Shown: positions 6,601 to 37,800 of the stretch, in pieces
Numbering within the stretch: position 1 is the stretch's first letter
Layout of the letters: each line of letters begins with the position of its first letter
Assembly: GCF_964355755.1 (NCBI RefSeq)
Contig: NC_092680.1
Coordinates: 6,733,001 to 6,797,000, forward strand
Length of the DNA: 64,000 nt
Direction of reading: 5' to 3'
From: Antedon mediterranea
Taxonomy: Eukaryota > Echinodermata > Crinoidea > Comatulida > Antedonidae
Notes under the pieces: generated by a model
What the model was told of the DNA's origin: nothing
Database searches by the model: none
The model's input: only the letters and a program-made list of their open reading frames with translations
Made by a program: the position numbers and the translations under genes

Positions 6601-9600
6601 CTGTTAAGAGAACAGAGATGACTGCTTTGTGCTGGAAAAGGCTATCATAATAGCAACTTTATACCAATAACACACCACACGACTACAGTCATTCTACATG
6701 TTTGTGTGTGTGCAGAATGACAGCTGCATAGTCTAGGAATGGTTTAAATCCTTTTCCTTTATTGCAATGCACCCTGAAAGTCTGTCAAAACTGCTTTTAA
6801 ACAATAAGTACAGTAATTTGGTATTTCCTTGTTTTGTACTTTTTATTTTTATCTTTTATTTATTCAAATTCTCACAAAAATGTACAAACAAAGCAAGAAA
6901 AAGACAAAACATATAAAAAGAACAGAGTACATTCAGTGAAGGATGGGACCAACAGGTGGTAAACACCTCTAGGACGGTCCAATCCCAAATTGCACAATGA
7001 GTAAAAAAGTTAAAAACATTATAATAAATATTTTAATATAATAGTAATATATAAATTTGTATAATTTAGGATAAAACTAAGTTGGTCGACATTTACAGCA
7101 GCGACAACAGGACACCCATGTGCACATATTGCCAGTTTCATACGTATTGGTAAATAAGTCGTTGAAATATTTCTTAGCCCCTAGCTTAAACCTGTAAGAC
7201 GTAGGTGCTTTTCTAGTATCTTGGTCTAACTGATTCCACATGGGAACAATGCGTTGGAAATACATCAATTTATGTGATTCAGTATGACCAATTCTAACAG
7301 TAAGATTGAAGTCATCTACAGATGATCTTGTTGCACGACCATTATTGTCTCCGGAAAATGTAATGAAATCTTTGATATTAAGATCATTCATGTTAAGCAA
7401 GCATTGATGGAAGAAGTTAACATCCATATATTCTCTTTTATATGAAAGGGGCAGTAAATTGAGCAATGTTAAACGTTCTTTGTAATCTTGATCGGGGTAA
7501 TTCAAAATGTATTTGGTAGCTTTACGCTGTACACTTTCCAAACGTTGCATGTTACATTTGGATGTGCCACTCCACAATGAGCTAGCATACTCAAGGTCGG
7601 TTCTAATCATGGAGGTGAATAGTGTTATAGTAATACTGATAGGGGAATTGTAACCCATAGCCCGTTTAATCATACCAAGTTTGCAATTACATTTAGAGAC
7701 AACTTTGGTGACGTGCTCATTCCATTTCAGATGATTAGATATTTCGATCCCCAGATCATTGATTCAATCAGATCTAGCGAGAGAAATACCATTCATCCTG
7801 TAGTCATATATTACAGGGTTTCGTTTTCTAGTAATAGATATAATTTGACATTTAGATGGATTAAAACATAGATCCCATGTTTTGCTCCATTTGTACAACG
7901 AATTGATATCTTCTTGTAAAAGATTACAATCGGTCACTTGATTAATAGATTTCAAGCCTTTAGCATCGTCTGCAAAAAGAGCAATTGTTGCATTCTTGGT
8001 AGACGTGGGCAAGTCGTTTATGTATAATAAGAAGAGTAGGGGACCTAGGATTGAACCTTGTGGCACCCCTGAAATCACAGGTAGCCAATCGGAAAAACGA
8101 TCCTTCGATAACAACCCTTTGCGTTCTGTTGGAAAGATAGGCCGTAAACCAATGATGGCGATTACCACTAATACCGTATGATTTTAATTTGTGCAGAAGT
8201 AAATGGTGGGACACACTGTCAAACGCTTTAGAAAAATCTAGATATACGAGGTCGACCTGACCAGCACTTACTTACTGTGTGAAAAATGGTTAGTAATTGT
8301 GAAACAGTAGAACGGCCCTTAATGAATCCGTGTTGTAGGTTATACAAATAATTCTTTAAGTGCGGAAAAATAGCGTTGTAAATTAATCTTTCGAAAACTT
8401 TGTTTGAGATACATAGTAAGGATATGGGTCTGTAATTAGAGGCTTTGTGTTTGTCGCCCTTTTTAAATACGGGAACCACGTTAGCTTTAAGCCAAATATC
8501 AGGCAGTTGTCCAGTTGACATTGACATTTTGAAAATGTGACACAGTGGTGGACTGAGTTGTTTAGCGCACTCTTTAAGGACCCGTGGTGAGATCTCGTCA
8601 AGACCGACAGCCTTAGAAGTATCCAAGCTCGAAAGAATTTCACAAACATCAGTTTTATTAATAATAATGTTACTTAGATCAGGCATATTTTCTTTTGTGT
8701 TGCTGGCTTTGGGTAGAACATTGTAAATCTTTGGTGTACTGAACACCGAATAAAAATAGTCGTTAAATACTTGACAAACATTGTAAAAAATAATCATTAT
8801 TAGTTGAAATTATACCTTCCTATTTTTCTTGATTACATTGATAACATCATAGTACACTTTCCACCATAAAAACTCTTCTGCTTTTCTTCCAAATGATTCA
8901 GGTTGAAGAAACATCAATCTCTCAGACAAATCTTTCAACCTTATATCAATATAAAACAAATATAAATTAAACCATGCTTATGTTAGAGAGTGCATCCTTT
9001 ATCATTCATATTGGTATCAATAATTTTATGCAAATTATTTAGCCAGCACAATATAATAATTAGTTGAACATGTAGCAGTGATATATATAATATGTCAAGC
9101 CTTTATAGTTTTAATAACGTTGTGTAAAATAACTAAAGTATAATACATTCCCTGAAGATAATTGCAATCAAGTTAAAAAAAATCCAATACTATACCTCAT
9201 ACGTAACTCAATTGTATCTCGGTCAAACACTGCCCTGTATGCCTGCTTTATCTTTGTTATATTGCTTAACTTCTTAATTATGTCTTGAGCTCCCCTAATT
9301 CAGTAATAAACAAATTAAAAAAACAGAATTAATCATTGAAGTACTGATCATTATGGAGGTATTTGTACTGATCATTATGGAGGTATTTATACCTCCATTT
9401 ATTACGAACAACCAAAATAACTCAGATAGGCCTATACCCATGCAAGTTGTGTTGTAAATAACATTAGGCCTAGGCCTATATTTTTTTCATATTTGTGTCA
9501 TCTCGATTTTTTGTCTAGGCCCTAGGAGGCCTTACCTAGACAAAGATACGGTACTGTATCCTAACTTCCGTTTGCTAAAAGTATGGTAAAATTGCATTAC

Positions 9601-12853: not shown

Positions 12854-15460
12854 GTTAGCTTTATACTGTGGTTGGCCTAAATGTAATTTTTGACCGTTCA
12901 CATCATTGTTAATGTTGAGAGAATGTTCTAGATACCTACATGCTAATTAAGAAAACTCAGCCTAGGCTAGGCCTTACCTGCATGCTAAAAAGTTTAAAAA
13001 GATGCACAAAAATATAAATATTGATAGGCCTATAGGCCTAGGCTTACGCCTAAATTAATAATATATTATATTCAATCGTATCGTTGTTTTCTCGATTTTA
13101 GAGGTTGTACAGAAGAAACGAGCTCTTTCGAATTTGAAAAACTTTGGCCTAGGCCTAGACCTAACCCTAGATCTTTGTATGAAATTGCTCATCAGTCTCC
13201 AGAATACAGTTTTCCTGATAACGTAATCTATGATGACGCCATGTTCTCATCAGATCTTGAAGACAACAGTTTATCGCTACGCAGTTCTTCACAAGCGACG
13301 CCTGTAGATGACTTACCGACCGAGCAAAAGGAAGATAATTACATTTGTATAGAAGACAACGTCAATCAGAGGATAGCGTCTAATGGTTTTAAAGAAACGA
13401 AAGCAGACTCGGATATAATGATTAATATGGCCGAAAATGAGGGCAATATTCAGATAGTAGGCTTGTGTGGCACCAGTAATAATAGGTCATATAGGCCTAG
13501 TGATCATTGTACTACTGTACTTAACGATGATGAACTGACCATTGTCGAGGAGACGAACATCGAGAATCTGGCAAGTGATGAGAAACAACGCACAACACCG
13601 TTAAACTTCACAAACTACCTGCTTTCAGGCGTACAAGACTACTTAGTACCAATTGCTGCACATTGTCGACCCTACAAGCACTCGTCGTCTGATGATAATG
13701 TTCTCACGGTGAACAATCATGTAACCTCTCATAATAGCATTGTCAGAGAATCATCATCAATAAGTCAAAAGAAGAAACGAAGAGACAAATATAAGGATGC
13801 AAACACTGTTAGATTAGAACCTATCGAAGAACGTGGGAAAGATAGGAGTCCTCCGCCGGCATCTTCCCTCCCGCCAGTTCCAGTCAGGTGGCTTGAAGAT
13901 ATAACAATGTCTTTAGCAGGTATGCTAGATACTTGCAAACAAGTTGTTTCTAAAAGTATCGATTCAGATTCTACTACGCCGACTCCACCGCTACCTGCAG
14001 AAATTATGGCTGTTGACGAATCCTGGTATTTCGGTGGTGGGCCCACTTTAGCCGATAGTCTGCTGAATGACGAAACCTTGCCGAAATTAGAAACTCTGAC
14101 TTCGGCCTTTATACCCGTTTGCGGAACCGTACCTTGTGATCAAGATGATGTGTTTCGTATCGAAGACACCAAACAGGTAACTTCGGAAGAATATACACGA
14201 GAACGTATCGGTCAAAGTAACGTAGATCCAACACTATTTTCTGCACCTACGAACCTGACGCACATAGATACCAATGATATCTTAAATATTTATCCTAGTT
14301 TTGGACACACTCATCCCACAGACACAGAAAGCGATGATATGTTAAAGGAAGATTTCTCCAAATACAACCGCAAGAATGCACAGACTACTGAACAGAAATT
14401 TGAAAATGTCGACGACCAATGGTTTGAACATTCAGCAACTAGGAATGTAGAGGAATTCTACAATATGATATACTCTGATGATCGACATTGGGATGAGATA
14501 ATCCCCTGCAATACCAATAGAAGCGCTGTTGAAGAAGTTGAATCGGAAGACGATGTTACATTAATCGATGTTTACCAAAGACCAATCAACAGAACGTCAG
14601 CTGTAACAGAAAGTGCTGCTGATGACTCTGGAGAAATAAATAAGGAGAATAATGTTGAAGAAACTTACGACGTCAACAATCTCCACATCGGAGTTTTTGC
14701 TTCAGAAAAAAAGTTCGATAACTTGCCCGAAAGCGATCACATTTTATTTGGTAATGGAAATTTTATATTAGAATCAGAAACATCTTCTCTTGACTATCAA
14801 CCTCTTCCTCTGGTCGCCTCGTCGCGTGTCATAGACTGTGAAACAGGTGAAATGAAGTCAAAATTGAATGTTCAACAGACATCTGCAGACGACGTACCTG
14901 CAGCATATTCAAATCATGTTAAGAATAGCGAAAAACCTGTGTTAAAAAGACATCATCTTAACGTTAGAAGTGACACCGTATTGACACATGTGACAACAAA
15001 ATGTGACATGTCAGGGAATGAAGATGTGCAGTGTAAATCATACCTATCGCGAAAAGTTTCGTTACAGGAACCGTGTTCACAATACAGCATAAACTCATTG
15101 GCTGATGACTCCATTGAGGATATTCTGATGGTGGAAAAAAGATGCATTGGCGGTGGTGGGAACATGGAGGTAAAGAAAAGAATTTACAGTAGCGTTTCAG
15201 AAGATAAACAAGTCAATCATACGACCGAAGAACAGATACGACTACTAGACGATGCTCTGCAGGATATTTCTCTCATTAACGAAGAAAATGTTGAGTGTTT
15301 ACAAGTTGAAAGGGATGGGTGCAACACAACGATTTCTAGGTCTAATCAAGATGAAATCCAGGACGACATTCAAGAAGAGGGATTGGTGCATACTGGCACT
15401 GCTTTCGCCGGGAGATACACTAACCAGGTGGATGATAAGGTTTCATCGCATATGAAATGA
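12672..15460 (+). CDS. Two-exon gene for an 846-aa acidic protein of unknown function
   Basis: Exon 1 (12672-12853) starts at ATG in MAHSYKNQQPPQQEE. Donor AAG|GTTAGC and acceptor TTCTCGATTTTAG|A join it in frame to exon 2 (13102-15460). The product is about 846 residues, strongly acidic, Ser/Asp/Glu-rich and low in hydrophobic segments, so it is probably largely disordered and intracellular. It has no signal peptide or membrane helix. The more ordered-looking patches are FEFEKLWPRPRPNPRSLYEI at the exon junction, PVPVRWLEDITMSLAGMLDT near residue 305, and ESWYFGGGPTLADSLL near residue 350. AATAAA lies at 15497-15502, 37 bases after the stop. The length of the open frame and coherent splicing argue for a real gene. 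I recognise no family. Confidence 0.75.
13102..15460 (+). CDS. Unknown acidic protein, exon 2
   Basis: A 2359-base exon open from the acceptor at 13101 to TGA at 15458-15460. Its first codons are built from the AGGCCTAG simple repeat, giving PRPRPNPRS. Confidence 0.78.
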
Positions 15461-15509: not shown

Positions 15510-16826
15510 CCCATTTCTGCTGCTGAGAATATTGCAATGTCACAGAATCTAATATGACGACAATGTTTAAGATATTTTGTAACAATACTTGTATTATAGT
15601 ACTAAGAGCTGAATCCACTTTTACTAAAGTGGGCATACAGTAATTACATAGAGATATTTTGGATCTAGATGCTAATCAAAAATAAATATAGTATTTTAAA
15701 TTGAGACAATATTGGACGTTATGTAATCAGGGACAAGCTGGGAGTGAAGATGCAGACAAAAAGGTCAACTTGTTTAGGCCTAGATTTATATTTTTCAAAG
15801 TTTTATCAGCGAGGCATGCAATTCATGCATTATTCATGCAGTCATCATGACGGTAATTCAACAGAACAAAGGCGAGCCCAATTGCAGTACGGTATCGACT
15901 GAGATAACCGATCATCTTCTCGTTTAGCATAATATAGCTAGATTAATACTATACTTTCATTCAATCAAAATGACGTTCATGATTGCATATTATACAATAT
16001 AATGCATATTTATGACGTAACGATTTGAGGCTAATTTGTTCATTTTTATGTGTTTGAACGTCTTGCAAGAAAATATGTGTTAAAAAGTTAAAATTTGTTT
16101 TAACTGCTAATTGGCTGAAATGAACCAAACTCCAATTTGAGGCTAATTTGTGCCATTTTTTATGTGACAGAAGGGGGCTGGAACCTGCCGCGGGTTGTAA
16201 AAGACATACGTTGTCAAGAGGTATCCCCTATCTATAATAGAAAACAATTACTGTGATAGTGATTATGTATGCATCATGAAAAATCCTATATCCTAAAAAT
16301 TGAGTAATTTGTGTTTTTTATGTGACAGAAGGCGGCAACCTGCTGCGGGTGGCAAAATACATACGGTAAAAAAAAAAAAGAGGTATTCCCTATAATAGAG
16401 AGCGATTACTGTATTGACGGTAATGGTAAAGATAGCTTTTATTTTTAAAATAGTTAAGTTAAATATTATTTCCTAAATTAACTTAACCCTCGAAATATCT
16501 CTCTTTTAAAATAAAAGAAAATATTAATTTTTATATTTAAAAAAAAGATTAGAAAGCAAGCTGGCACTCAAGAGTACTCAAATAGAACATTACCCGTTAA
16601 GCCACAAAGTACATGACAAAAACAAATGACAATATATGTATACGTGCTTCATAATGCGTAATTCATCAGACTGAGCGTCGTGAATAAAGGTTGAGATAGT
16701 TGCAGATCTCTCTGCAAGCGGTCGAGATGTAAAAAGGCGTCGAACACCTTGGATGCCGAACCAAACGATGCTGACGTCCCCTGCGCAACTAGTGGCGCCG
16801 CCACTGATTTACTACTACACCTTTGG
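15510..16826. other. Intergenic; diverged repeats
   Basis: At 16026, 16138 and 16300 the words GAGGCTAATTTGT...TTTTTATGTG recur. Two of these are followed by ACAGAAGG-GGC...CCTGC-GCGGGT...AAAGACATACG and a GAGGTAT-CCCTATAATAG block, so about 150 bp is tandemly repeated with divergence. No gene seen. Confidence 0.55.
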
Positions 16827-16835
16827 TGCCGGGGC
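16827..16835 (+). repeat. Left 9-bp target-site duplication TGCCGGGGC
   Basis: Exact direct match to 26994-27002, immediately outside the TIR end GCGATTTTTTTTTTCGTAC. Confidence 0.88.
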
Positions 16836-16930
16836 GCGATTTTTTTTTTCGTACATAAGTTGGGGACCCCCTCATGAAACGTCACAAAATAAACATGAAT
16901 AATTCATCAGTTAAATTTTCTTGTTCCGTG
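16836..16930 (+). repeat. Outer terminal inverted repeat, left
   Basis: 95 bp, 93 identical to the complement of 26899-26993. Starts GCGAT, then ten T, then CGTACATAAGTTGGGGACCC. Confidence 0.88.
16923..16930 (+). repeat. 8-bp target duplication of the nested minisatellite element, left
   Basis: GTTCCGTG here and at 18886-18893. The uninterrupted right arm (complement of 26899-26906) has it once, which defines the empty site. Confidence 0.85.
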
Positions 16931-16939
16931 CGTATCCGG

Positions 16940-17632
16940 ATATTCACCCCCTGGACATTTACCACCCGGAAAACTACCCCCCGGACAACCACCACCTGGA
17001 CCACTACCCCCTTAGGACAACTACCCCTTTAGGACAACTACCCCCCGGACAAATACCCCCCGGACAACTACCCCCTTAGGACAACTACCCCCTTAGGACA
17101 ACTACCCCCCGGACAACTACCCCCCGGACAATTACCCCCTAGGAACAATTACCCCCCGGACATTTACCCCCCGGACAATTACCCCCCGGACAATTACCCC
17201 CCGGACAACTACCTCTGACACAATACTCCCCGTAGGACAACTACTTCCTGGACAATACTCCGAGGGAAAATAATCTTTTAGGACAACTACCTCCGTAGGA
17301 CAACTAACCCCTGGACAACTACCCCCCGGACAATTACCCCCTAGGAACAATTACCCCCGGACAATTACCCCCTAGGAACAATTACGCCCTGACAACCCCC
17401 TCCCCCCCCCCCCACCCGGGTAATTACCCCGCGGACAACTACCTCTGACACAATACCGGGTAGGACAACTACCTCCTGGACCTGGACAATACTCCGAGGG
17501 CAAATAATATTTTAGGACAACTACCTCCGTAGGACAACTAACCCCTGGACAACTACCACCCAGAAAACTATCCCTTTAGAACAACTACCCCCCGGACGGA
17601 CAACTACCACCCAGACCATTCAACAACCTGAC
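16940..17632 (-). repeat. C-rich minisatellite, units of about 13-18 bp
   Basis: Dozens of variants of GGACAACTACCCCCC and CCTTAGGACAACTACCCC. The opposite strand can form runs of five to six G. The 72-codon frame at 17132-17350 is an artefact of the array. Confidence 0.9.
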
Positions 17633-18252
17633 TCTGCAACAGTGTATAATAGGAATTAATAACTATATTTTAATTCGTTACTTTGACGAATTACTATTCA
17701 TTATTGTAAACAAAAGTAAAAGATTGAACATAAATATAGCCTGGTTTAAACTGAAGATTGTCACACATGATCATAGGATAGTCGAACGTATTATATAGTA
17801 CTCCCTGTATTTACTGTAAAGACTGGGTTCGCTAATAATAATAATAATGTTTGCGTCAGGACAATGCTTCGATAACCACTGGTTTTAAAAGAATTAATTT
17901 TTGTCTCAAATTTGTCATATATGTATTTTTGTACACTTGAAGAATAATATCACTTTTGATATTTGACCTCAATGTTCACTCACCGAATAAACGGCGATCT
18001 TTAAATAAATTCCCCTCAAATAAACGGTGATCATGTCACTCCCATGAAACATCATATGGAATTAATAATCGGCGTCTATTTCCATTAGATTATACCCCCT
18101 CCCATTGAATAAACAACTTTCTTCCAATAAATGTCCACCTAAAAACCACCTAAACAATAAACAGCCCAGGCCGTTTTGTCAATAAATACGGTACTTTAAA
18201 TCTAGCACATCTAGGGTCTAGCGTGCTGTTAAACAGAATAATCGGTTAAAAA

Positions 18253-18569
18253 CGGGTGTTTCGAAACTAGAGACCCGAGACCAGAGACCCGAGACCCAAT
18301 ACGAAAAGGGAGACCTAAATATACGAAAAGAGAGACCCACGTACGAAAAGGGAGACCCTACTATACGAAAAGAGAGACCCTAATATACGAAAAGGGAGAC
18401 CTAAATATACGAAAAGGGAGACCCAAATTATACGAAAAGGGAGACCCCACTATACGAAAAGAGAGACCACACTATACGAAAAGGGAGACCCTAATATACG
18501 AAAAGGGAGACCCAAATATAGGTCTCCCTTTTCGTATTGGGTCTCGGGTCTCTAGTTTCGAAACACCCG
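18253..18569. mobile_element. Foldback element with an internal 22-bp GAGACC array
   Basis: TIRs CGGGTGTTTCGAAACTAGAG and CTCTAGTTTCGAAACACCCG enclose about ten copies of TATACGAAAAGGGAGACCC-like units. TTAAAAA occurs on both sides (18246-18252 and 18570-18576) as a possible 7-bp target duplication. A relative lies at 31491-31775. Confidence 0.78.
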
Positions 18570-18623
18570 TTAAAAACATATGATTTCATTTTTACAGAAA
18601 CCGTTTGTCTACTTTTGGATTGG

Positions 18624-18878
18624 GGGGGGGGGGGTAGTTGACCGGGGGGTAGTTGACCGGGGGGTAGTTATCCTAAGGGGGTAGTTATCCTAAGGGGGTA
18701 GTTGTCCGGGGGGTAGTTGTCCGGGGGGTTGTTATCCGGGGGGTTGTTATCCTAAGGGGGTAGTTGTCCTAAGGGGGTAGTTGTCCGGGGGGTAGTTGTC
18801 CGGGGGGTAGTTGTCCTAAGGGGGTAGTTGTCCGGGTGGTAAATATCCGGGGGGTAACTGTCTAGGGGGTAGGTGTCC
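18624..18878 (+). repeat. G-rich minisatellite, inverse of 16940-17632
   Basis: Units GGGGGTAGTTGTCCTAAG and GGGGGGTAGTTGTCC. Runs of four to six G recur every 13-18 bp. Confidence 0.9.
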
Positions 18879-19160
18879 TAGAACCGTTCCGTGTGCACCC
18901 AAGCGTATAGCAACAAGAAGTGATTACACAAGTGCGGTACGATTCTAGGCCTATCTCCGCTGTTGAAGAATAGCGGCGTTTTGTGTGGATTGTCGAAATA
19001 ATCGGCCTTTAGTTTATGGTGTTTTTAATATAATTTATTACTAAAGAATTACGTGTTAAAATTATAGTTTCTATTAATACTATTAGGCCTAATTATTAGT
19101 CTCTAAACCCATGTCTATTCTAGTAGTAGCTGTGTGTGACGTGTGTGTGCGTTAGGTATG

Positions 19161-19187
19161 ACCAAAGATAGTTACACTATCTTTGGT
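19161..19187. repeat. Short perfect hairpin
   Basis: ACCAAAGATAGT and ACTATCTTTGGT separated by three bases, flanked by GGTATGAC on both sides. Probably a remnant of a small insertion in the left arm; absent from the right arm. Confidence 0.6.
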
Positions 19188-19412
19188 ATGACACAATCCG
19201 AGTAATAAGTCAGCAAAATTAAACAATAAACATTACACAAAATTACATTTTTTATTCTCGTGGGTCAAATCTTCCCATCTCATGTGTTCATATACGCGCA
19301 TTTTTAAAGTTCCTTTGAGTACATTGCATATTGTTTGATAATTGATAGCAGAATTAAAAAAATACAGTACACAAATTATACACATTCTTTATTCTTGTGG
19401 GTCTAAGCTTTT

Positions 19413-20279
19413 AGTCTGGGAGCCCAGAAGGTTTTAATTAGCAATTTGAGTACAAAAGGTTTGAGGTGTGGAGTGTGTAGATATGGTCTATGGGACCCAG
19501 AAATGGCAATTCTTAAGTGACGGGTCCTGTTCAATTTTAGGGGGGAACCACCCAAATGACCCCTAAAATTGAATTTAATTAGCATATCGAGTACATCGAT
19601 CAAACCAATCCTAAAATGTTCTCCTAACTATCAGGAATCAAGATCCATAATTCTTAAGTGACCATTCCTGTGCTAAATTAACTTAAGAACGCACTTAATT
19701 AGTGCTGATTAGACATTTAATTAGCATTTTGAGTACATCAACGAAATTCACATGACATATACTTATGAACATACTGATTAAGGATTCATCATTCTTAAGT
19801 TTGAAATCCGGGGCCAAATCCACTTAAGAATGGGTCAAAGGTTAAAATAATTAAAATTCAAATTTAATTAGCATATCGAGTACATCGACCAAACCAATTC
19901 TAAAATGTTCTCTGACCTATCAGGAACCAAGATCCATAATTCTTAAGTGACCATTCCTGTGCTAAATTAACTTAAGAACGCACTTAATTAGTGCTAATTA
20001 GACATTTAATTAGCATTTTGAGTACATCAACGAAATTCACATGGCATATACTTATGAACATTCTGATTAAGGATTCATCATTCTTAAGTTTGAAATCCGG
20101 GGCCAAATCCACTTAAGAATGGGTCAAAGGTTAAAATAATTAAAATTCAAATTTAATTAGCATATCGAGTACATCGACCAAACCAATTCTAAAATGTTCT
20201 CTGATCTATCAGGAACCAAGATCCATAGTTCTTAAGTGACCATTCCTGTGCTAAATTAACTTAAGAACGCACTTAATTA
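19413..20279 (+). repeat. Inner subterminal arm, left: 289-bp tandem repeats with CTTAAG palindromes
   Basis: CAAATTTAATTAGCATATCG starts at about 19859 and again at about 20148, a period of 289 bp, with a partial earlier unit from about 19571. Each unit has four CTTAAG hexamers in both orientations (ATTCTTAAGTGACC, AACTTAAGAACGC, ATTCTTAAGTTTG, CCACTTAAGAATGG). The whole arm is inverted at 25573-26427. The minus-strand frame 19403-19603 and its twin at 26236-26532 are mirror artefacts. Confidence 0.88.
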
Positions 20280-20309
20280 CACTTGACTGGATTGTTTGAA
20301 TACGGTTTC

Positions 20310-20315
20310 TTTATT
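20310..20315 (-). terminator. Polyadenylation signal of the element ORF
   Basis: AATAAA on the minus strand, 155 bases past the stop of the 1550-aa frame and still inside the element. Confidence 0.5.
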
Positions 20316-20469
20316 TGGTATATCACAAAATCCACTTAAGAATATTTCTCTAAATGAATATTTCACTAAATGTCAAAATGTAAAAAAATCTATCATAAAA
20401 GTCTACATAAACTTCAGATAAAATCCACAACAACAGTTTTTTTCTTCTAGTGTCGATATTGTAATAACA

Positions 20470-23400
20470 TTACTGTTGATCATCTTCATTCTCTGATGCA
20501 GATTCATCGTCTGATGATACAGTCATATCATCCTCCTCGTCATCATCATCTGAATCTGAATCTATGTCTTTATTCTCTGGAATTAATGAATCTGGAAGCT
20601 GAGCCCCTTCATGCCAAATAGGTTGATAAAGACCACTTTGAAAGTCCCAGCCATTTGAAATAATTGGATGTTGTTGGATTGTTGTCTGGTCAGCATCTGC
20701 CCACATTTTAGCAATGAAAGATACACGTTTAATATGGCAATTAAGTTCAGCTTCGCATGGTGGAATGACACTTGCATTAATGCCTTTCAGTTTCTCAAGT
20801 GGATTCTTTGACGTTGCACTTGGACTATAGCCTCGTTCAAATATGCTGTACCGGAATTCATTCAGTGTGCCTTTATATGAGTTTTTGGCACCATATACTT
20901 GAGCGGTAAACGTTTGAAGAGTAGTTTGTGCATCTCCACTTAATGAACCTTCACATGTAATTTCATTGAATGCTTTTTGGGCTTCAATATTCTTCAACAG
21001 TTTAGCAAATGGTTGCACTTTGCCTTTCCGTACAAATGAAGAGGTATAATCACACCCAGTAAAAGCATGAAATGCTGGTAGTGATAAACATAACTGCAAA
21101 CCAAGTATCTGATGTATACTCGACAAACAGATGTATCTACGACTATTTTTAGCAGATATACCAACATCCATCCACAATTTAGAGGCAAACTTATTGCAAT
21201 GATACAACATTATAACTGCTATGTCGGTGTCCGATGCTCGTATGACTATATCTCCTCTCAGACCAATACTTTCAATAAACTTAGCATGCAGACATATTTT
21301 GGTATCTGCTTCTTCATGGTTGCTTCTGAGGGCTGCAACATCTTCTCGAGTAACTACACCATCAAAAACTCGAAAAAGGTAGCACTCTCCAGGTACATCA
21401 AGAAACACCTTTTTATCCCGGAATATGTCAGCATAAGTCTGGTCCTGCCATTCTTTTGCGAGAAATTGAGGCAATTGAGATTTAAATGATCTGGATTTCA
21501 AGGCATCATTGATATGTTTTGGTCTAACTTGTTCTGGTCCTGTTATTAGATACTCTCTTTCTTCAACTCCTCTTCTACCTCTCTCAAAATCTTTCAGTGA
21601 TGGTTGTGGATAATCATCAAAGAGCAGGTGGACTTCCTTGGTTTGTGTGTTTGCTGATAAAGCCTGAATCAACACACTTCTGGCTAGTCCTCCATAGTTT
21701 GGTGGAATGTATGGTGGTAACGTATGTAATAAGAATTGGCCATCTATTATGTAGGCACATGGATATTGAGGATTAATATTCCCATCTTTCACTTTTGACT
21801 CAAGTACACCAAGCAGTGAACTTTTTGGTGTTTTGGTCATAGTTCCATCTGCATTACAAAGAGAAAGCGGAACAGGCGTCAAGGGGTAGCTAAATATATA
21901 TGGCAGGTCAAGGTTGCGTTTGGTCGCTAACAACACTAGTCGACCCATTAGATCTCTGCTACACTTGAGCTCTGCTATGCGTTTATCTTTTGTGCTCTTG
22001 TTGCTGGCACAATCATATGCAAATGTCTTTATTGGCGTCTTCTTGATTCTTTGCTCAAATCTGCTAGGATCTTTGACACAAGACTGTACAAACTCCTGAT
22101 GTCTAGACTGTCCGCATTGAGGTATGTTCAGTAAGCTTTCCTTTACCACAGTACTGACGGCTTTGCCTGTGTTGATATTAAATAGTTTAGTAGATGTGTC
22201 TATCACTCTATCAAAAGGATTATGTGTATCCTCTATGTGTTTTATTACAGCAGTTAGATCCCGGTTGTCACGATGTATTCGTGCAGGTTTAATCTCTGAA
22301 GCAATGTCGTCTTTTGAAAGCAGTCCTGCCATTTCATGAACAATGCTAACAAATGACGCACGGGTGGATCTTGTAATCATCCATCGTAGACGAGCACCAT
22401 AGTTGTTAGTTGCAGATGTTATTCCACTAAGTCTAGAAGCAGCATCGGCATTTACTGTTTGCTCAAGTGTCAGATCTACTGGTATTCGACTAAAAGCATT
22501 GTCTGTACGCCGGATACTGAATGCACCTTTCTCTAATATACTCCGGAGTCCAGGATGCGAGTTATCAATATTGGCGAGATCGAGTTGGAATTTTGTTAAC
22601 CATCGTGCATAGTTGATGTGATTTGTGGCAAAAAACAGACCAATAATGGGAGTAAGAGAGTAGATGTAAAGACTGATGTTATTGGTTCGGATTGACCTCT
22701 CTAGGTTATGATAGCTACGGATATAGTCAATGTACATAAGCCAAAATTGAGCAGTGAATCCATGTGCTCCCGAACGTGTCAAATCTGCAAACTGTTTGTA
22801 TGCTGTACATGCATGACTAAATGTAGCGGAGTTGATGGCTTCTTCATGACTTGGTTCATTGGTTAATTCCGTTAGCTGTTCTCTGTTGCTATAGTCTTTC
22901 ATGAATTCCCGAAAATGTAGAATTTCAAAAGCAAGAGCCAATATGGGGTGTAAACGTTTACATCTATTGAAATGTTTTCCACTTAGAAAACCGTTAAGTG
23001 ACCCGGGAGCAAGCACATCAGTATTGGTAAGCATATCAGGACCTCCTGAATTAGAAAGAAGCTTTCCAACAGCTTTAAAAAAGGCCATTTCCACATGGAA
23101 AGCACCTAACATAATAAATATGTCATCAAACCTTGGTTTTTCTGTTGCTTGTATTTGCATAGCTGGCTTTGCTGCATTTAAATCGTAAGTCACGATTCCG
23201 AATTTCTGCTCACATTCATTAGTGCATCTTTGGGTTATCAAGAGTGTCTCTTGTATGACATCTAACCTAGTGATTGGTTGTTGCAAATTTGGCATATATA
23301 GAACTGCCTGTTTTGGCAAATTGTCTGAATATGATGCAGCATTGTAACCGACCCACATAGGAATGTAATTCTCTTTCAAGGCATGTTTTAACACCCAAAG

Positions 23401-25122
23401 GAAGTCCATATTCCATGCCACTGCGCTGACATCAGGGAGACTAGAAATATCTGTAACATTGTAGTTAAATTCGGTCATTTTTGGTTTCTTACGATATGGC
23501 TCTAGAGCAGACATCTGTGGCGCTAGTGATCGCTTTCTACCTTTCTGTTGTTTGTTAGTTACACAGGAATGGCCTTCTGTGACATTTGTTTCATTAGTTT
23601 CTTGCTCGTCTGATATATTTTGGTATAGTATTCCCATTGTGTCATGAAGTGTGTTGGCACCCGAAAGTGTCTGAGTCATTTCATCAAAATTATCAAATGC
23701 AAGTCCCATTGGTATGTGTTTAACGGTTCCAATGGGGCATGCCAGCATCCTCTCTTGTATTTTCTCAGCCGTATTTGTTTCAAGTTCTTCAAGGCAGTTG
23801 TAATTTAGGCTATGTCCAAACCTATTTAGAACCTGTACTAACTTTTTGCTACCTGTAACAGTCTTTACAGCCATACCCAATGCCACTTGCTTTGCTGGTT
23901 TCACTTTACCTCTTTTGACAATGAAAAGTGCATCATCACAAGATGATTTAACACGTCGCTTCACCTGCTCAGAACACTTAGTTTGTTCTGCTCCACTGTA
24001 CAATGCAGTGAAAAATGTGGATAACAACTTGGGGGGAAAAGCATCCCCTTCCTTTAAATCATCCAGGGTAGGATTTTCAGGAAGGTCTTTCTTTTGAATG
24101 CCAAATATGTTTTTACGAAGTAGAAAAGCTGCCTTGGTAACAATGTGTTCATCATCCGATGCATAGTCATATGCAACACGTACAGATTTATCGGCAGTGT
24201 CAGAATTGTAAATAATAATTCCCAGTTTCTTTGTTTCTGTGTGGAAACGTAGTTTCTTACCAAATTTGTTTATCAAATTACGCATAAGACTCTGTGCACT
24301 ATTTATGGGTGTTGTTTCAGAAAGTGTACACATATCAGTATATCTGGCATACACTGATGTCAAAAGCTCAGGTCTTTTGTTGCAGATGATTGCTTTTTCT
24401 ACATAGTTATGGATATTTTGTATCATGGTTAGTTTGGATGACTCATTTGAATCCAATTCGCTCTGACTTGAAACCCTTTTGGCCGACATCAAATATGCAC
24501 TTTTACAAGAGTGGTGATATTTTGCTTCTTTGGCTACTAAGTCAATACCACTTATTTTGGATAACAGTTTGGAATCATTTAAAGCAGAAGCTGCCTCATG
24601 GATGCTCTGACCAGCTTCAATTGTCTCACAACTACCAGCTACTTCATACTGACCTTTCTTGCGTTTTCTTGCATTCCCACAAAATATACATTGAGGAGGG
24701 AAAATACCAGATGTTGATGACAGCGACCTATCGCTTTCGGGTGTAGCTGAACGTAAATGTGGACTCTCAGCAGTGCTTCCTAACTTGTGTGTATGTGGTG
24801 CCTTATCCGTGGATGCAGTTTCTGACGGTATAGCAGTAAAATTCTTGTAACACATCACATGATAACCTTCATTTTCGTCAGGAGATGACGGTAATTTTTG
24901 CACAATGTTGTGATATACAGATTCCACAAAATTACACTTTTTACGTCTACTTTCTGCTGCCAGTAAAACCGCTTTCCAATGTTTATCACTGAATGAGAGG
25001 ATATTTCCCCACTTTGACTTTTGCTTGGGCTTTTCAATGTGGAGAATGCAAACGTTGGACGATTTCATCTGAGTTTCAGCACTACTTTCAAGAGTCTGAT
25101 CTGGGTCCGTAAAGCTTTCCAT
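20470..25122 (-). CDS. Element-encoded 1550-aa protein with C-terminal FEN1/XPG-like nuclease domain
   Basis: A single intron-less frame, ATG at 25120-25122, stop at 20470. Zinc-ligand-like motifs occur near the N-terminus: C91 in MCYKNF, C145-x2-C148 in CIFCGNARKRKKGQY, and KYHHSC with C206. A middle region (about 570-950) has D647 (VTYDLNAAKPA), H676/E678 (LGAFHVEMAFF) and E887 (LTLEQTVNADAAS), possibly an RNase-H-like fold, which is unproven. Residues 1120-1400 match the FEN1/XPG order of metal ligands: D1127 (YIIDGQFLLH), D1169/D1170 (LLFDDYPQPSLKDFERGRRG), E1270/E1271 and D1273 (NHEEADTK), D1298 and D1300 (ASDTDI), and D1358 (TGCDYTSSFVRKGK). These mirror human FEN1 D34, D86, E158/E160, D179/D181 and D233. 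The tail (about 1520-1548) is almost all Asp/Glu/Ser. Unnamed relatives with HEEADT...SDTD...TGCD blocks are common in invertebrate genomes. A role in transposition is inferred from position between TIRs. Confidence 0.85.
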   Translation of the reverse strand: MESFTDPDQTLESSAETQMKSSNVCILHIEKPKQKSKWGNILSFSDKHWKAVLLAAESRRKKCNFVESVYHNIVQKLPSSPDENEGYHVMCYKNFTAIPSETASTDKAPHTHKLGSTAESPHLRSATPESDRSLSSTSGIFPPQCIFCGNARKRKKGQYEVAGSCETIEAGQSIHEAASALNDSKLLSKISGIDLVAKEAKYHHSCKSAYLMSAKRVSSQSELDSNESSKLTMIQNIHNYVEKAIICNKRPELLTSVYARYTDMCTLSETTPINSAQSLMRNLINKFGKKLRFHTETKKLGIIIYNSDTADKSVRVAYDYASDDEHIVTKAAFLLRKNIFGIQKKDLPENPTLDDLKEGDAFPPKLLSTFFTALYSGAEQTKCSEQVKRRVKSSCDDALFIVKRGKVKPAKQVALGMAVKTVTGSKKLVQVLNRFGHSLNYNCLEELETNTAEKIQERMLACPIGTVKHIPMGLAFDNFDEMTQTLSGANTLHDTMGILYQNISDEQETNETNVTEGHSCVTNKQQKGRKRSLAPQMSALEPYRKKPKMTEFNYNVTDISSLPDVSAVAWNMDFLWVLKHALKENYIPMWVGYNAASYSDNLPKQAVLYMPNLQQPITRLDVIQETLLITQRCTNECEQKFGIVTYDLNAAKPAMQIQATEKPRFDDIFIMLGAFHVEMAFFKAVGKLLSNSGGPDMLTNTDVLAPGSLNGFLSGKHFNRCKRLHPILALAFEILHFREFMKDYSNREQLTELTNEPSHEEAINSATFSHACTAYKQFADLTRSGAHGFTAQFWLMYIDYIRSYHNLERSIRTNNISLYIYSLTPIIGLFFATNHINYARWLTKFQLDLANIDNSHPGLRSILEKGAFSIRRTDNAFSRIPVDLTLEQTVNADAASRLSGITSATNNYGARLRWMITRSTRASFVSIVHEMAGLLSKDDIASEIKPARIHRDNRDLTAVIKHIEDTHNPFDRVIDTSTKLFNINTGKAVSTVVKESLLNIPQCGQSRHQEFVQSCVKDPSRFEQRIKKTPIKTFAYDCASNKSTKDKRIAELKCSRDLMGRLVLLATKRNLDLPYIFSYPLTPVPLSLCNADGTMTKTPKSSLLGVLESKVKDGNINPQYPCAYIIDGQFLLHTLPPYIPPNYGGLARSVLIQALSANTQTKEVHLLFDDYPQPSLKDFERGRRGVEEREYLITGPEQVRPKHINDALKSRSFKSQLPQFLAKEWQDQTYADIFRDKKVFLDVPGECYLFRVFDGVVTREDVAALRSNHEEADTKICLHAKFIESIGLRGDIVIRASDTDIAVIMLYHCNKFASKLWMDVGISAKNSRRYICLSSIHQILGLQLCLSLPAFHAFTGCDYTSSFVRKGKVQPFAKLLKNIEAQKAFNEITCEGSLSGDAQTTLQTFTAQVYGAKNSYKGTLNEFRYSIFERGYSPSATSKNPLEKLKGINASVIPPCEAELNCHIKRVSFIAKMWADADQTTIQQHPIISNGWDFQSGLYQPIWHEGAQLPDSLIPENKDIDSDSDDDDEEDDMTVSSDDESASENEDDQQ

Positions 25123-25572
25123 TACAATTTGATGTCTTCACGCACAACATAAACATATAGCAATTATAATACTGAGAAAAGATGATCCTGTTGTGTTAAC
25201 TCTACTAATCTATACTATAGAGTAAAATTAGCAAATGGTAATGTTGGTTCAATGATTTTGAAATAATGGAATAGCACATGGGGATGGAATTCCTGCTGGA
25301 CACCCAAGCCTAGATAGATGTATCCATGGAGACAAATTCCTGTATCTGATATATTCCAGAGACATTCACTTAAACAATAAGATAAAATATGATGATGCAA
25401 AGGACCTGTCCTAATTCCAGACAGCCCACAAATCACATTTGGTTTTGGATCTGAATATATCAGAGAATACTCTATTTGATATTTTACCCATTCTTAAGTG
25501 AACTAATGTTCTTTGAGTATGTTCATAATTTCTCAAAATGTTAATTAAATGTCTAATTAGCACTAATTAAGT
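25123..25572 (-). promoter_or_regulatory. Presumed promoter/5' leader of the element ORF
   Basis: The 450 bases between the ORF start and the right inner arm hold no other gene. No TATA box is obvious. An isolated CTTAAG word lies at about 25494, just outside the inverted match. Confidence 0.35.
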
Positions 25573-26427
25573 GCATTCTTAAGTTAATTTAGCACAGGAA
25601 TGGTCACTTAAGAATTATGGATCTTGGTTTCTGATAGGTCAGAGAACATTTTAGAATTGGTGTGGTCGATATTCTAATTAAATTTGAATTTTAATTATTT
25701 TAACCTTTGACCCATTCTTAAGTGGATTTGGCCCCGGATTTCAAACTTAAGAATGATGAATCCTTAATCAGTATGTTCATAAGTATATGTCATGTGAATT
25801 TCGTTGATGTACTCAAAATGCTAATTAAATGTCTAATTAGCACTAATTAAGTGCGTTCTTAAGTTAATTTAGCACAGGAATGGTCACATAAGAATTATGG
25901 ATCTTGGTTCCTGATAGGTCAGAGAACATTTTAGAATTGGTTTGGTCGATGTACTCGATATGCTAATTAAATTTGAATTTTAATTATTTTAACCTTTGAC
26001 CCATTCTTAAGTGGATTTGGCCCCGGATTTCAAACTTAAGAATGATGAATCCTTAATCAGTATGTTCATAAGTATATGTCATGTGAATTTCGTTGATGTA
26101 CTCAAAATGCTAATTAAATGTCTAATTACTGTAGCACTAATTAAGTGCGTTCTTAAGTTAATTTAGCACAGGAATGGTCACTTAAGAATTATGGATCTTG
26201 ATTCCTGATAGTTAGGAGAACATTTTAGGATTGGTTTGATCGATGTACTCGATATGCTAATTAAATTCAATTTTAGGGGTCATTTGGGTGGTTCCCCCCT
26301 AAAATTGAACAGGACCCGTCACTTAAGAATTGCCATTTCTGGGTCACATAGACCATATCTACACACTCCACACCTCAAACCTTTTGTACTCAAATTGCTA
26401 ATTAAAACCTTCTGGGCTCCCAGACTA
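25573..26427 (-). repeat. Inner subterminal arm, right
   Basis: Inverse of 19413-20279. CCCATTCTTAAGTGGATTTG starts at 25711 and again at 26000, a period of 289 bp. About ten CTTAAG hexamers are intact; one is mutated to CATAAG near 25888. Confidence 0.88.
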
Positions 26428-26429
26428 TT

Positions 26430-26644
26430 TCTTTGGGCTATGTCCAAGAACGCTTGGGTGCACACGGAACAACAACTGCGATACGATTCTTTCTACAATA
26501 ATAGGCCTAGGATTCTAGGTCAATTCACGTGATTGCCTTCGCGCACTCTTCTTCACACACACGTCCACTATGCAAAATGTGTCGAGGCTAATCGACAGCT
26601 AGGCAAAACATTAAACTAAGTAGTAATTGGACATAGCCCAAAGA
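26430..26644. mobile_element. 215-bp MITE in the right arm
   Basis: TIRs TCTTTGGGCTATGTCCA and GGACATAGCCCAAAGA. The interior contains CGCTTGGGTGCACACGGAAC, a copy of part of the host element's own TIR. Absent from the left arm. Confidence 0.7.
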
Positions 26645-26898
26645 CACAAGTCACACACACCCACACAGCTACTACTAGAATATACAGGGGTTTAGAGACT
26701 AGTAATTAGGCCTAATAGTATCAATAGAAACTATAATTTTAACACGTAATTCTTTAGTAATAAACTATATTAAAAACACCATAAACTAAAGGCTGATTAT
26801 TTCGACAATCCACACAAAACTCCGCTATTCTATTATGAAATCAGCGGAGATAGGCCTAGAATCGTACCGCACTTCTTGTTGCTATACGCTTGGGTGCA

Positions 26899-26993
26899 CA
26901 CGGAACAAGAAAATTTAACTGATGAATTATTCATGTTTATTCTGTGACGTTTCATGATGGGGTCCCCAACTTATGTACGAAAAAAAAAATCGC
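26899..26993 (-). repeat. Outer terminal inverted repeat, right
   Basis: 95 bp ending TGTACG, ten A, TCGC. 93 of 95 bases match the complement of 16836-16930. Confidence 0.88.
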
Positions 26994-27002
26994 TGCCGGG
27001 GC
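26994..27002 (+). repeat. Right 9-bp target-site duplication TGCCGGGGC
   Basis: Exact repeat of 16827-16835, immediately outside the right TIR. Confidence 0.88.
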
Positions 27003-27900
27003 ATCGAGCTTGGTCGGTCACTCTCCGTGTTCTGTGTGCCAGTGGTGGCTGCTGCTTTCCCTTTTCGTCGGCTGCTTTGCGGTCGAAGTCTGGTCCACTG
27101 GCCGGCTCCTCCTCATCCCGACAACCACTCCTTTACCACATATTTACCAAACGAGGCGACGAGGCTCACCACACGATGCCAGTGTATTATGAGGGCCGCC
27201 GACGAGTGACTGATAGCCGGAGCTATCGTGAGAGGCGGCGCGGGCCTCTTTCCCCTACTAATCACACCCATGATATGCCATCATCTGGATAGCACCACGA
27301 GTTTTCCTATCTATTGGTAATACGTCGGTGCTATCACCCATCATTTCCTGGACGTTTAGGTTCCGTCTGATGTCTTCCGGTGTCCTCCCTTCTCCGTGTG
27401 CCCGTCATTGCACTCGAGCCCTCCTCGGGTGCTCCGCTCTTGTGTGGTTTGAAGCAAGCCGGAGCATGCGTCCTTATCACGTGGGCCCGCATATTGTCCA
27501 CTCTGGGCCGGGGACCGCATTCCAGAGGGCATGACGTCTTCCGCACGGCCGGGGTATCGCCACCGGGCAAGCCTCTCCCTTCTCCCCAGCCACTGCGGAC
27601 TCCTTTGGACTGGCCAGGAGCACCTCTTCCTCCATCTGTGGCGTGGAGGTCAAAAAGTATTAGCTGATGATCCATATCTTAGGAAGAAGAGAACATAAAC
27701 GTTAGTACTTAATTGCTAACTCAGGACTTGCAGTTCGCACATCGATACAGATCGATGTCGTCCAAGGCCTCAGATGGTGCAATATTTTCACACATTCCCC
27801 GTGATACAACACATTGCAATAGTCACATTGTATCATAAACCGGCCCAGGGCTGGCGACATAAACAATACAACGGTCCCGCACCATCATCTGTAGAGGTGA
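27003..27900 (-). other. GC-rich flank, possible remnant of a coding sequence or another retroelement
   Basis: Markedly richer in GC than the rest of the window. On the minus strand 27334-27675 is open and contains a C-x3-C-x11-H-x4-H pattern (CPLECGPRPRVDNMRAHVIR then TH), like a C2H2 finger. A second minus-strand frame near 27113-27003 continues in frame into 16826-16649 once the 10.16-kb element and one duplication are removed. I cannot name the source. Confidence 0.35.
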
Positions 27901-27924
27901 AGAAAAAGTAGGTAAATTAGCCAT

Positions 27925-28118
27925 TTAAGCGTGGTGGTTCCCACTACCGACGCAACACAAGGATGTAACGCAACGCAAGTGAATTGACCAATCACAAGCG
28001 ATGGCTTATTCGCTTGTTATTGCTAACTGTCTATAACTTCGCTTGTCATTGGTTAAAACGCTTGCGTTGCGTTTCCGTCCTTGCGTTACGTTCTAGTATA
28101 TAGTGGGAACCAAGCTTT
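27925..28118. mobile_element. MITE 'GCGTGGTTCCCACTAG', upstream copy 1
   Basis: TTAAGCGTGGTGGTTCCCAC to TAGTGGGAACCAAGCTTTAA, enclosing GAATTGACCAATCACAAGCG, as in the 4893-5077 copy. Confidence 0.8.
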
Positions 28119-28296
28119 AAGCGTGGTTCGTTCCCACTAGCGACGACGCAGCGCAACACAAGGACGTAACGCAACGCAAGTGAATTGACCAATCACAAGC
28201 GATGGCTTATTCGCTTGTTATTGCTAACTGTCTATAACTTTGCTTGTCATTGGCTAAAACGCTTGCGTTGCGTTTACGTCCTTGCGTTACGTTCTA
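28117..28296. mobile_element. MITE 'GCGTGGTTCCCACTAG', upstream copy 2
   Basis: Directly follows copy 1. The right TIR is shortened (ends TTGCGTTACGTTCTAAAG) and runs into copy 3. Confidence 0.75.
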
Positions 28297-28478
28297 AAGC
28301 GTGGTTCCCACTAGCGACGCAACGCAAGGACGTAACGCAAAGCAAGTGAATTGACCAATCACAGGCGATGGCTTATTCGCTTGTGATTGCAAACTGTCTA
28401 TAACTTCGCTTGTGATTGGTCAATTCACTTGCGTTGCGTTACGTCCTTGTGTTGCGTCGCTAGTGGGAACCACGCTTT
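28296..28478. mobile_element. MITE 'GCGTGGTTCCCACTAG', upstream copy 3 (most palindromic)
   Basis: AAAGCGTGGTTCCCACTAGC and its near-perfect complement ending GGGAACCACGCTTT. The arms are about 80 bp. A fourth fragment follows to about 28512. Confidence 0.8.
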
Positions 28479-28548
28479 AAGCTTGGTTCCCCTAGAACGT
28501 AACGCAAGGACCGGTTCAGTTCGGGCGGCGTCGAGGTCCCACGTTAAC

Positions 28549-34800: not shown

Positions 34801-37800
34801 TTTTTGTAAAAAAAAGTTTCTCTCGCATGCATAAAAAACTATCGACTATAACATGTTCTTTTCCTCAACTGTTCTTTTTCCACAGCCAAAATTTTTGTTA
34901 TAGCGTCCCCTATTTTGCTTGTCAATTAACATTCAAAATGGCACTTGATATAGTCCTTTTTTGGAAACCGATATGGTAACAATAACACAAAAATAAGAAC
35001 TTAACTCTGCCTCATTAAATAGAGCAGTCAATCGTTCAAATCAGGAAATATTCTCACCATTCATTATTTGCATACTATTGTGTTGAATGAATTAAAGTTT
35101 GTTTAAATTGATGTAGTACAGTCATTCTCATATTCTCCTATTTATTTAGGTTTTGATTAAAGACACTACACTTATTCTCACTCCAGCACATATAAAAGCT
35201 TATATGTTAATGACATTTAAGGGACTGGAATATCTGCATAATAATTGGATATTGCATAGGGTGAGTCTTTTCCAAAATAATAAATTCTATCTAATAAGTT
35301 TTATTTTGACAATCAACAATATCTCCAGCCAGTAATAATGTGTTTAGTAATATGGAACTCTGACATTAATTTAAGAGAACTTTAAGCTACACACTGTGCC
35401 CATGGACATGGTGATGTCATATCATTAGCATGTTTGGGCATATAACTACCATATTTGGGCACATCTCACGTTTTTGTCAAACTAATTTGATAGTGTAGAC
35501 AGAACTTAGATTATTCCATTTTAATAATGACCGAGTTGTCTCCAGAAGATGGTGGTAGTATTGTACATACAGAGTTGGTTCATGGTGTTTGTAATATACA
35601 AATTTATGATGGTTATCTATTGGCTAAATACTAAACACCAATGGATCAATCTATTTATAAGTTAAGTTCACCGAGTGGAGACTGGCTGAAACAAAAACCA
35701 TGTGTTTAGAAAGGGTTGTGAAATATAAAATGGCCAAAGTTTTTATCAACAAATTGATTTCGTCATGCAAACCTTTAAACAATATATATATATCATATTT
35801 TCCATTATTTTTGTCATATTTTAATTCTTTTAGTGTTTTTTTTTCAACCACAGGACATGAAGCCCAATAATTTACTTGTGAATGAGGCTGGAGTCCTGAA
35901 GTTAGCTGATTTTGGACTTGCCAAAACGTTTGGTAGCCCAAATAGAGTTTACACACATCAAGTTGTTACTAGGTGTGTGATCTACTTGAATTTTTAAGAA
36001 TATTTTATTGCATTGTTTGAACACCTATACATCTACATTTAATTTCTTGGCCATTTGTACTTTTCTCGTAGTGTAAACCATGGGGTTGATTTTATAATTT
36101 CACCGTTTGGTGTGGGAGTACCTTCTTATTCCGAAATATTCTCATCATTTAACTCATAAGCATTCAATGTTTGCAGAGAGGTCAATAATCAAATCAGTTA
36201 ATTACCATATTACAGGTGGTACAGATGTCCAGAACTGCTGTTTGGTGCCAGGATATATGGTACTGGAGTTGATATCTGGTCAGCTGGATGTATTTTAGCT
36301 GAACTGCTTCTACGAGTACCATTCCTTGCAGGTGAAACAGACATTGATCAACTTGGTAAAATATTTGAGGCTTTAGGTACACCAACAGAGCAAGACTGGC
36401 CTGTGAGTTTTTCTTTTTTTTCATACGCATCCAACAGCGAGTAATTCACCAATTACAGGATGGATAAACTATTTTATAATTTATCTTGCTTATAAACTAA
36501 GTCGTTTGAGGATTAGAGAGTGGAGGTGAAAGAGTCATGAGTTACAACCCTGGCACTAGGTCAGGATTGAACCCTCATGGCACTAGGTCAGGATTGGAAG
36601 GCAAGCACATTAACTTTAAATCTTCACTTTAATCTTTAATTATGTCATCAAAAATAAGAGTCACTATTTCAACATTAATTATGTCATCTTCAGGTATTAT
36701 TATTATTAAATATGTTGATACAGTACATTGAATTTGTATCAGATAATTTCCCAAGTGATTGTGGGTTTGGTCTACTAGCATTCCTGCTCCCAACTAATCC
36801 ATTTTATCGTTATGACATCTGTTTGTGAATTACGCTCTACATTCATTTAATCTTTAATTAGGGTTCAGTATGTCAACATTTTAGAATCTTTAGCTGTATG
36901 ACAAAATAAATAGGTCTTTAAAACATGATGATGACATTTCATAGTGTTGAAATTAGTGTATATTTTATTGCTTATTTTTTAAAATGTTTCTCATTATTAT
37001 TATATTAAAATTTTACTTTCAAGGGAATGTCTTTACTACCAGATTACATTACATACAAGTCGTTCCCGGGTACGCCATTAAGAGATATATTTACTGCGGC
37101 CGATGATGCCCTGCTGGATTTACTACATAAACTGTTAAAGCTTGATCCTTCGCAAAGATGCACTGCCACCCAGGTAAGTTGAATAATAACTAGCATTTAT
37201 CAATTATTTTGCTTAAGTCAAATAGTTAAGAAGTGAAAGTCATTAAGTTTTTATTTAATACGGTTTTACCACGTTAAAATACCGGTTTTCGTCAGATCAC
37301 CGAATTTAAGCGACGTTAGGCCTGGTTAGAGCTTGGATGGGAGACCATCTGGGAATATCGGTGTATTGCTGTATATGGAGCTAGGGTCCCGTTAGGCATT
37401 GAAATCAGCATTGCTGACTCTTGTGGCAGCCCCTGCATCTAGTAAGTGCCTCAGACGTATTGGCTTATTCCTTTCCTCTTGTCAAGGTGGACACTGGACA
37501 AAAGAAGCCCTTGATCAATGTTAGGACCAATCAAGGTGCTTTAAACAGTCCTGGCTTTGTTTGTATCAAACCTGTTAGTGGCGGTATTGTTGGTTTCGAT
37601 TTAATAAAATAAAATTTAAAAAAAATTAAAAAAATTAGTTAATTTCCTGGTGACATTTTTTTTTCTGTGGCAGCTCCAATCCTGTGGAATTCCTTACCAA
37701 TTTCAACAGACAATGTGCCACTCTAAATATGAATAATATAATATAATCTCAATAACTGTATATTTAAAATAATTTTGTATTTAAAGGCCTTACAGATGGC

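Follow-up and report, generated by a model that had tools for sequence, protein, structure and literature searches.

In which mobile element does the long nuclease-like gene of this crinoid locus reside? The gene lies in a stretch of 64,000 nucleotides from Antedon mediterranea (NC_092680.1, positions 6,733,001 to 6,797,000; hereafter called the window, whose own numbering is used throughout). A preliminary description assigned it to one transposon of 10.16 kb, limited by terminal inverted repeats (TIRs) and 9-bp duplications, and proposed that the encoded FEN1/XPG-like nuclease moves the element, either without or alongside a DDE transposase. The analysis reported here leads to a different picture: the locus very probably consists of nested insertions, in which a non-autonomous outer TIR element was hit both by an autonomous-looking AcademX-type DNA transposon, carrying the gene, and by a minisatellite block. 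Insertion boundaries, target site duplications (TSDs), a conserved residue pattern and further genomic copies and relatives are the direct observations on which this picture is built.

The features from which the preliminary description started are all present. The outer TIRs (16836-16930 against 26993-26899) match at 93 of 95 positions (97.9% identity), the exact 9-bp duplication TGCCGGGGC is found two times only when both strands of the window are scanned, and the open reading frame (ORF) of 1550 amino acids (aa) is single and intact. The extent of the gene-bearing element is indicated by a second copy, intact and 99% identical, found on contig C10 of the genome searched (354 Mb, 18 contigs). 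When the 20 kb around this copy were compared with positions 16000-28000 of the window, matches longer than 150 bases covered solely 19412-26428, the longest piece showing 99.1% identity over 6866 columns, and neither the left nor the right outer arm, each searched separately against the C10 region, produced a match. Since the C10 copy ends at the inner TIRs, the gene-bearing element corresponds to 19412-26427. The reciprocal situation is seen in L052, a copy of the outer element, which is 97% identical, over 899 columns, to the outer backbone deprived of both inserts. At the point where the Academ element inserted, L052 is uninterrupted and has TTT once; where the minisatellite block inserted, it has GTTCCGTG once and no block. 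The outer left arm is therefore split by a block of 1955 bp with an 8-bp duplication, an insertion missing from the preliminary description.

A single 10.16-kb transposon, flanked by 9-bp duplications and moved by its FEN1-like nuclease, could account for the outer TIRs, the exact duplication and the ORF, yet practically no credit is left to it by a second copy that stops at the inner TIRs, by outer-element copies that are gene-free in three cases out of three and uninterrupted in L052, and by a 3-bp duplication proper to the inner element, as to seven of the eight other elements for which both ends were located. The boundaries of the copies do not coincide with the outer TIRs, but the gene is not a host gene caught between unrelated repeats either: it is that of another transposon. 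The apparent new 10-kb element and the claim of a new superfamily thus fall away, leaving a well-bounded AcademX-type family, and the case may be taken as a warning that nested TIRs can give rise to false yet convincing element boundaries.

The inner TIRs are about 870 bp long, about 97% identical, and start with TAGTCTGGGAGCCCAG; within the left one, 2.5 copies of a 289-bp unit are detected by TRF at 19564-20279. The inner terminus finds 18 genome matches at two mismatches or fewer, 13 of them exact, while its reversed control finds none. Eighteen flanks were inspected by eye, of which 14 had been fetched and four came from the window and C10 copies (two from each); similarity ends at the same terminal base in all of them. 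Twelve elements were examined, nine of them with both ends located, and a 3-bp TSD is present in eight of these. It was read directly as TTT (window), TAT/TAT (C5 copy L034/L035), ACA (c3a), ACA (c8a) and CCA (c5), and, after shifting one end to the shared TAG terminus, as AAT (c3b), AGA (c8b) and TAC (c8c).

The encoded protein, P0001, is composed of N-terminal Cys/His motifs, a central region (residues ~345-1010), a FEN1/XPG-like region (residues ~1085-1400) and an acidic tail. Its conservation was evaluated on 10-row alignments, that of the C-terminal region including the window, eight other genome copies or pieces and a foreign contig, L048. Three sequences were omitted: the copy on C10, for its 99% identity to that of the window, c5, for its near-identity to c8a, and the broken gene of L049. 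Rows c8b and c8c, belonging to one family, count nearly as one. All ten rows agree on D477, D647 and D883 in the central region, and eight of them have E887. The sole Pfam match of P0001 is DUF6589 (residues 650-887, E 5e-4, under its cut-off), which is also found at E<=1 in four of six family members, with a best value of 7.9e-8; a literature search on DUF6589 returned no paper. At the same threshold, no helicase family was found in Pfam among the six members. D477, D647 and E887 may represent a DDD/E triad, in which case the central region would be a DDD/E transposase, acting in both excision and insertion.

In the C-terminal alignment, the sole invariant acids are D1127, D1169, E1271, D1273, D1298, D1300 and D1358, which follow the order D, D, E-x-D, D-x-D, D. 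All the metal-binding acids named in the preliminary description are present, and, where alternatives had been offered, D1169 and E1271 are the invariant ones. The seven acids are retained in rows 27-40% identical to that of the window, and in L048, and three of the motifs are recognisable by eye in the pieces of L049. The invariant K1177 and R1184, seven residues apart, come after D1169, a placement like that of the basic residues of the FEN1 arch helix. When the C-terminal profile was compared with PDB, Exonuclease 1 (EXO1) entries came first (E 0.0093), with D1169 on D78 and D1358 on D225, both catalytic residues of EXO1. The XPG_I model of Pfam matches four places of the genome, which resemble host repair genes; those for which both exons were found read EAEA...TEDMD...GCDY or similar, against EEADT...DTD...GCD in P0001. 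The comparison of host FEN1/XPG/EXO1 exon pieces with the nuclease profile by hhalign returned a match at the GCD motif only, scoring 33.1, a value reached by 1 of 200 column shuffles, that one scoring 134.7; the match provides weak support. Taken at sequence level, the data support a gene that is carried by a transposon and whose C-terminal region is FEN1/XPG-like; this region would be a structure-specific nuclease fused to the putative transposase. The two regions lie in one frame in nine of the ten aligned proteins, the frame of c3b being split in two.

Because 3-bp TSDs are combined with a putative transposase bearing a nuclease-like region, the inner element is most likely to be filed as AcademX, within the Academ superfamily; the match is to the description of AcademX. 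The nuclease of AcademX is of the XPG type. In the passage concerned of PMC10045372, which states 'nuclease' only and cites Kojima 2020 for the AcademX lineage, TSDs of 3-4 bp for AcademX and of 9-10 bp for AcademH are related to the encoding of a nuclease and of a helicase, respectively, and a passage of PMC9587614 counts Academ among the DDD/E transposase superfamilies. If the element is an Academ one, the earlier statement that no named superfamily is defined by such a domain is wrong. That the nuclease is used instead of a DDE transposase also becomes unlikely, given a long conserved central region, the weak DUF6589 match, the invariant D477 and D647 and the mostly conserved E887. What stands is the FEN1/XPG-like character of the gene, by its sequence pattern, the seven acids and the weak EXO1 top match, but not its belonging to a 10.16-kb element.

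A number of observations weigh against this reading. As for the boundaries, three of the eight TSDs (c3b, c8b and c8c) were read following a post hoc adjustment of the end to the TAG terminus, the C10 copy is flanked by CGA and TTG, with no 3-bp duplication, and both ends could not be placed for c10b, c2 and c9, among the 12 elements examined. In the central region, E887 is not conserved in the two remaining rows, the predicted model, built from a two-row alignment, is too poor to show a DDE fold (predicted local distance difference test, pLDDT, score of 31.0), and the sole match of the profile search against PDB is a kinase (E=0.089). In the C-terminal region, the EXO1 match is weak: the two aligned stretches alone have E-values of 200 and 0.57, and unrelated kinases appear from 0.12. 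The Pfam XPG family is listed for none of the six members, and none of the four XPG_I places is an Academ copy; the nuclease homology is therefore remote. The model of the nuclease region is poor as well (pLDDT 41.5, predicted template modelling score 0.37, two-row alignment), and a Foldseek search with this poor model gave no match at E<=0.001, the top ones being hexokinases and not FEN1; this structural comparison, suggested by the preliminary description, speaks neither for nor against the nuclease.

The inner element might then be AcademX-like, with a C-terminal region that is not an active FEN1/XPG nuclease but another PIN-like or an unrelated fold, serving for example in structural metal or DNA binding. 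The lack of a Pfam XPG match, the weak EXO1 score, the lack of a usable fold match and no more than a weak local match to the host FEN1/XPG/EXO1 exons all agree with this possibility, which is nevertheless improbable: seven invariant acids, ordered D, D, E-x-D, D-x-D, D and with no other invariant acid beside them, persist in the divergent copies and in L048 and, for three motifs, in L049, and the PDB alignment is in register.

If the C-terminal region is indeed a FEN1/XPG-like nuclease, a division of labour may be proposed for it as the favoured mechanism. The putative transposase would free the 3' ends of the transposon and join them across a 3-bp stagger; after strand transfer, the old donor DNA left on the 5' ends of the transposon would constitute a 5' flap, and the fused nuclease would cut the non-transferred strand, trimming this flap. 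The flap-trimming step, which we infer in its entirety and which adds to the points on the contrary side, is doubtful, and it is only tentatively that the XPG-like domain of AcademX may be regarded as a dedicated nuclease for the non-transferred strand (5' flap). If true, one polypeptide would make the two strand cuts at different sites, a DDE one and a FEN1-type one, which would render it a eukaryotic counterpart of the TnsA/TnsB pair of Tn7, in logic and not by descent. FEN1-family enzymes work in repair, and the nuclease could serve donor-site repair or end processing, such as 5' resection ahead of gap filling, rather than cutting. This is possible, though not probable: the data presented here contain no tie between the domain and any transposition step, but the domain shares a frame with the putative transposase in nine of the ten aligned proteins, and the relevant passage of PMC10045372 ties the length of the TSD to the accessory enzyme encoded.

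As for the AcademX-type family itself, the search of the genome with P0001 listed at least 35 matches, 30 of the 713 first-look candidates having been scored. Two copies, c8a (L019/L020, C8) and c5 (L021/L022, C5), are 7742 bp long each, differ at 1 position and contain a 1247-aa frame; since their flanks are distinct, as are their TSDs (ACA and CCA), very recent movement is indicated. Between the window and the C10 frame, 21 base differences (9 synonymous and 12 nonsynonymous) affect 11 residues, for a protein identity of 99.29%; none of them falls at the seven acids, and strong constraint is not shown by these counts. Near-identical, mobile-looking copies of this kind would be good starting material for studying a FEN1-like nuclease in DNA transposition.

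Outside the animal genome, none of the 55 pattern matches to the nuclease alignment and none of the 73 to the transposase alignment were confirmed in viral contigs. Contigs of prokaryote genomes gave 36 pattern matches, of which 2 were confirmed: L048 (JAJRVU010000273.1), from a Planctomycetota metagenome-assembled genome, contains an AcademX-like gene with a 1466-aa open frame, and L049 (NZ_CAHJWD020000426.1), from a mussel gill symbiont assembly, a broken one. Both are probably animal DNA mis-assigned to prokaryote assemblies. As a separate observation, a further element of the crinoid genome, L053 (C5:21476893-21483894), has the same Academ termini and a TAT TSD but does not match the Academ protein; the frames in its interior, judged by eye and with no family search, read like a gypsy-type retrotransposon polyprotein.

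Table 1. Features of the nested locus, in window coordinates; a dot marks features given without strand.
Feature	Position	Strand	Basis or remark
Complete DNA transposon, most likely Academ-type (AcademX-like), 7016 bp	19412..26427	-	termini TAGTCTGGGAGCCCAG...CTGGGCTCCCAGACTA
Inner element, left TIR	19412..20279	+	97.4% identical to right TIR over 873 columns
Inner element, right TIR	25564..26427	-	inverted-repeat alignment and TRF
3-bp TSD TTT, left of inner element	19409..19411	.	single TTT in L052
3-bp TSD TTT, right of inner element	26428..26430	.	single TTT in L052
ORF P0001, 1550 aa, single intact frame	20470..25122	-	
Putative DDD/E transposase region, residues 345-1010	22093..24090	-	conserved acids and weak DUF6589
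FEN1/XPG-like region, residues 1040-1480	20683..22005	-	seven acids; basic K1177/R1181/R1184
Outer non-autonomous TIR element, unrelated to Academ insert	16836..26993	.	TIRs, gene-free copies, L052
Outer-element backbone, ~1.2 kb	16836-16930, 18894-19411, 26431-26993		
9-bp duplication TGCCGGGGC, outer left	16827..16835	.	
9-bp duplication TGCCGGGGC, outer right	26994..27002	.	
Outer left TIR, distal part	16836..16930	+	resumes at 18886-19149, past the minisatellite insertion
Outer right TIR, continuous	26652..26993	-	
Minisatellite-rich insertion, 1955 bp, in outer left arm	16931..18885	.	8-bp duplication GTTCCGTG at 16923-16930 and 18886-18893

The outer element (Table 1) belongs to a very high-copy family, with termini GCGATTTTTTTTTTCG: the first 87 bases of its TIR recur with 100% identity at no less than 40 places among the matches listed (1169 first-look candidates). 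Three shorter copies, L050, L051 and L052, were fetched, their lengths being 927, 928 and 2206 bp in no stated order, and none contains the gene. A 9-bp duplication flanks two of them (CGGCGGGCC and GGCCCGGTA) and is not found for L051; in the window and in these two copies, the duplications are GC-rich. Duplications of this length would fit a Mutator-type element; the label was dropped, no transposase having been found and no search for one having been made. Close to its two ends the minisatellite block has 15-bp arrays in inverted orientation, with a 22-bp array in the middle, and it resembles a mobile element in its own right, terminated by inverted minisatellites.

Other features were observed elsewhere in the window. 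A 5S ribosomal RNA match (Rfam RF00001, 53.1 bits) is found at 37256-37374. Broken frames of a reverse transcriptase, similar to those of long interspersed nuclear elements, occupy 7077-8809 of the minus strand, RVT_1 being matched at 8231-8809 (E 2.9e-7), and an 810-aa open frame at 13028-15460, on the plus strand, has no Pfam match at E<=0.01 and is perhaps a large host-gene exon. Beyond the outer element, a dispersed repeat at ~27934-28500 occurs in both orientations, and recurs about 450 bp past the C10 Academ copy.

Among known systems, the host nucleases FEN1, EXO1, XPG and GEN1 have in common with P0001 the order of the seven acids, at similar spacing, and a weak profile likeness to EXO1; the four genomic places resembling host repair genes are recognised by Pfam XPG_I, which the Academ copies are not. 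KolobokE, KolobokD and KolobokP, according to passages of PMC9587614, combine a DDD/E transposase with an accessory nuclease, much as the putative pairing of the inner element does. They belong to another transposase superfamily and use other nuclease folds. AcademH is a member of the same superfamily; it encodes a helicase and produces 9-10-bp TSDs, neither of which is seen in the inner element, with its 3-bp TSD. The 9-bp duplication of the locus would match AcademH and clash with AcademX, but it belongs to the outer element. At 7.0 kb, the inner element is longer than the mean of 5.6 kb given for curated bivalve Academ elements in a passage of PMC10294476, and the tail of P0001 is acidic, whereas some relatives from the same genome have a Cys-rich one (weak TCR/CXC matches in two of six, best E 0.0091). 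From AcademX no clear difference was found, and the inner element shares with it TIRs, 3-bp TSDs, a large single protein in which a putative transposase region is joined to a nuclease-like C-terminal part, and residence in a eukaryotic genome.

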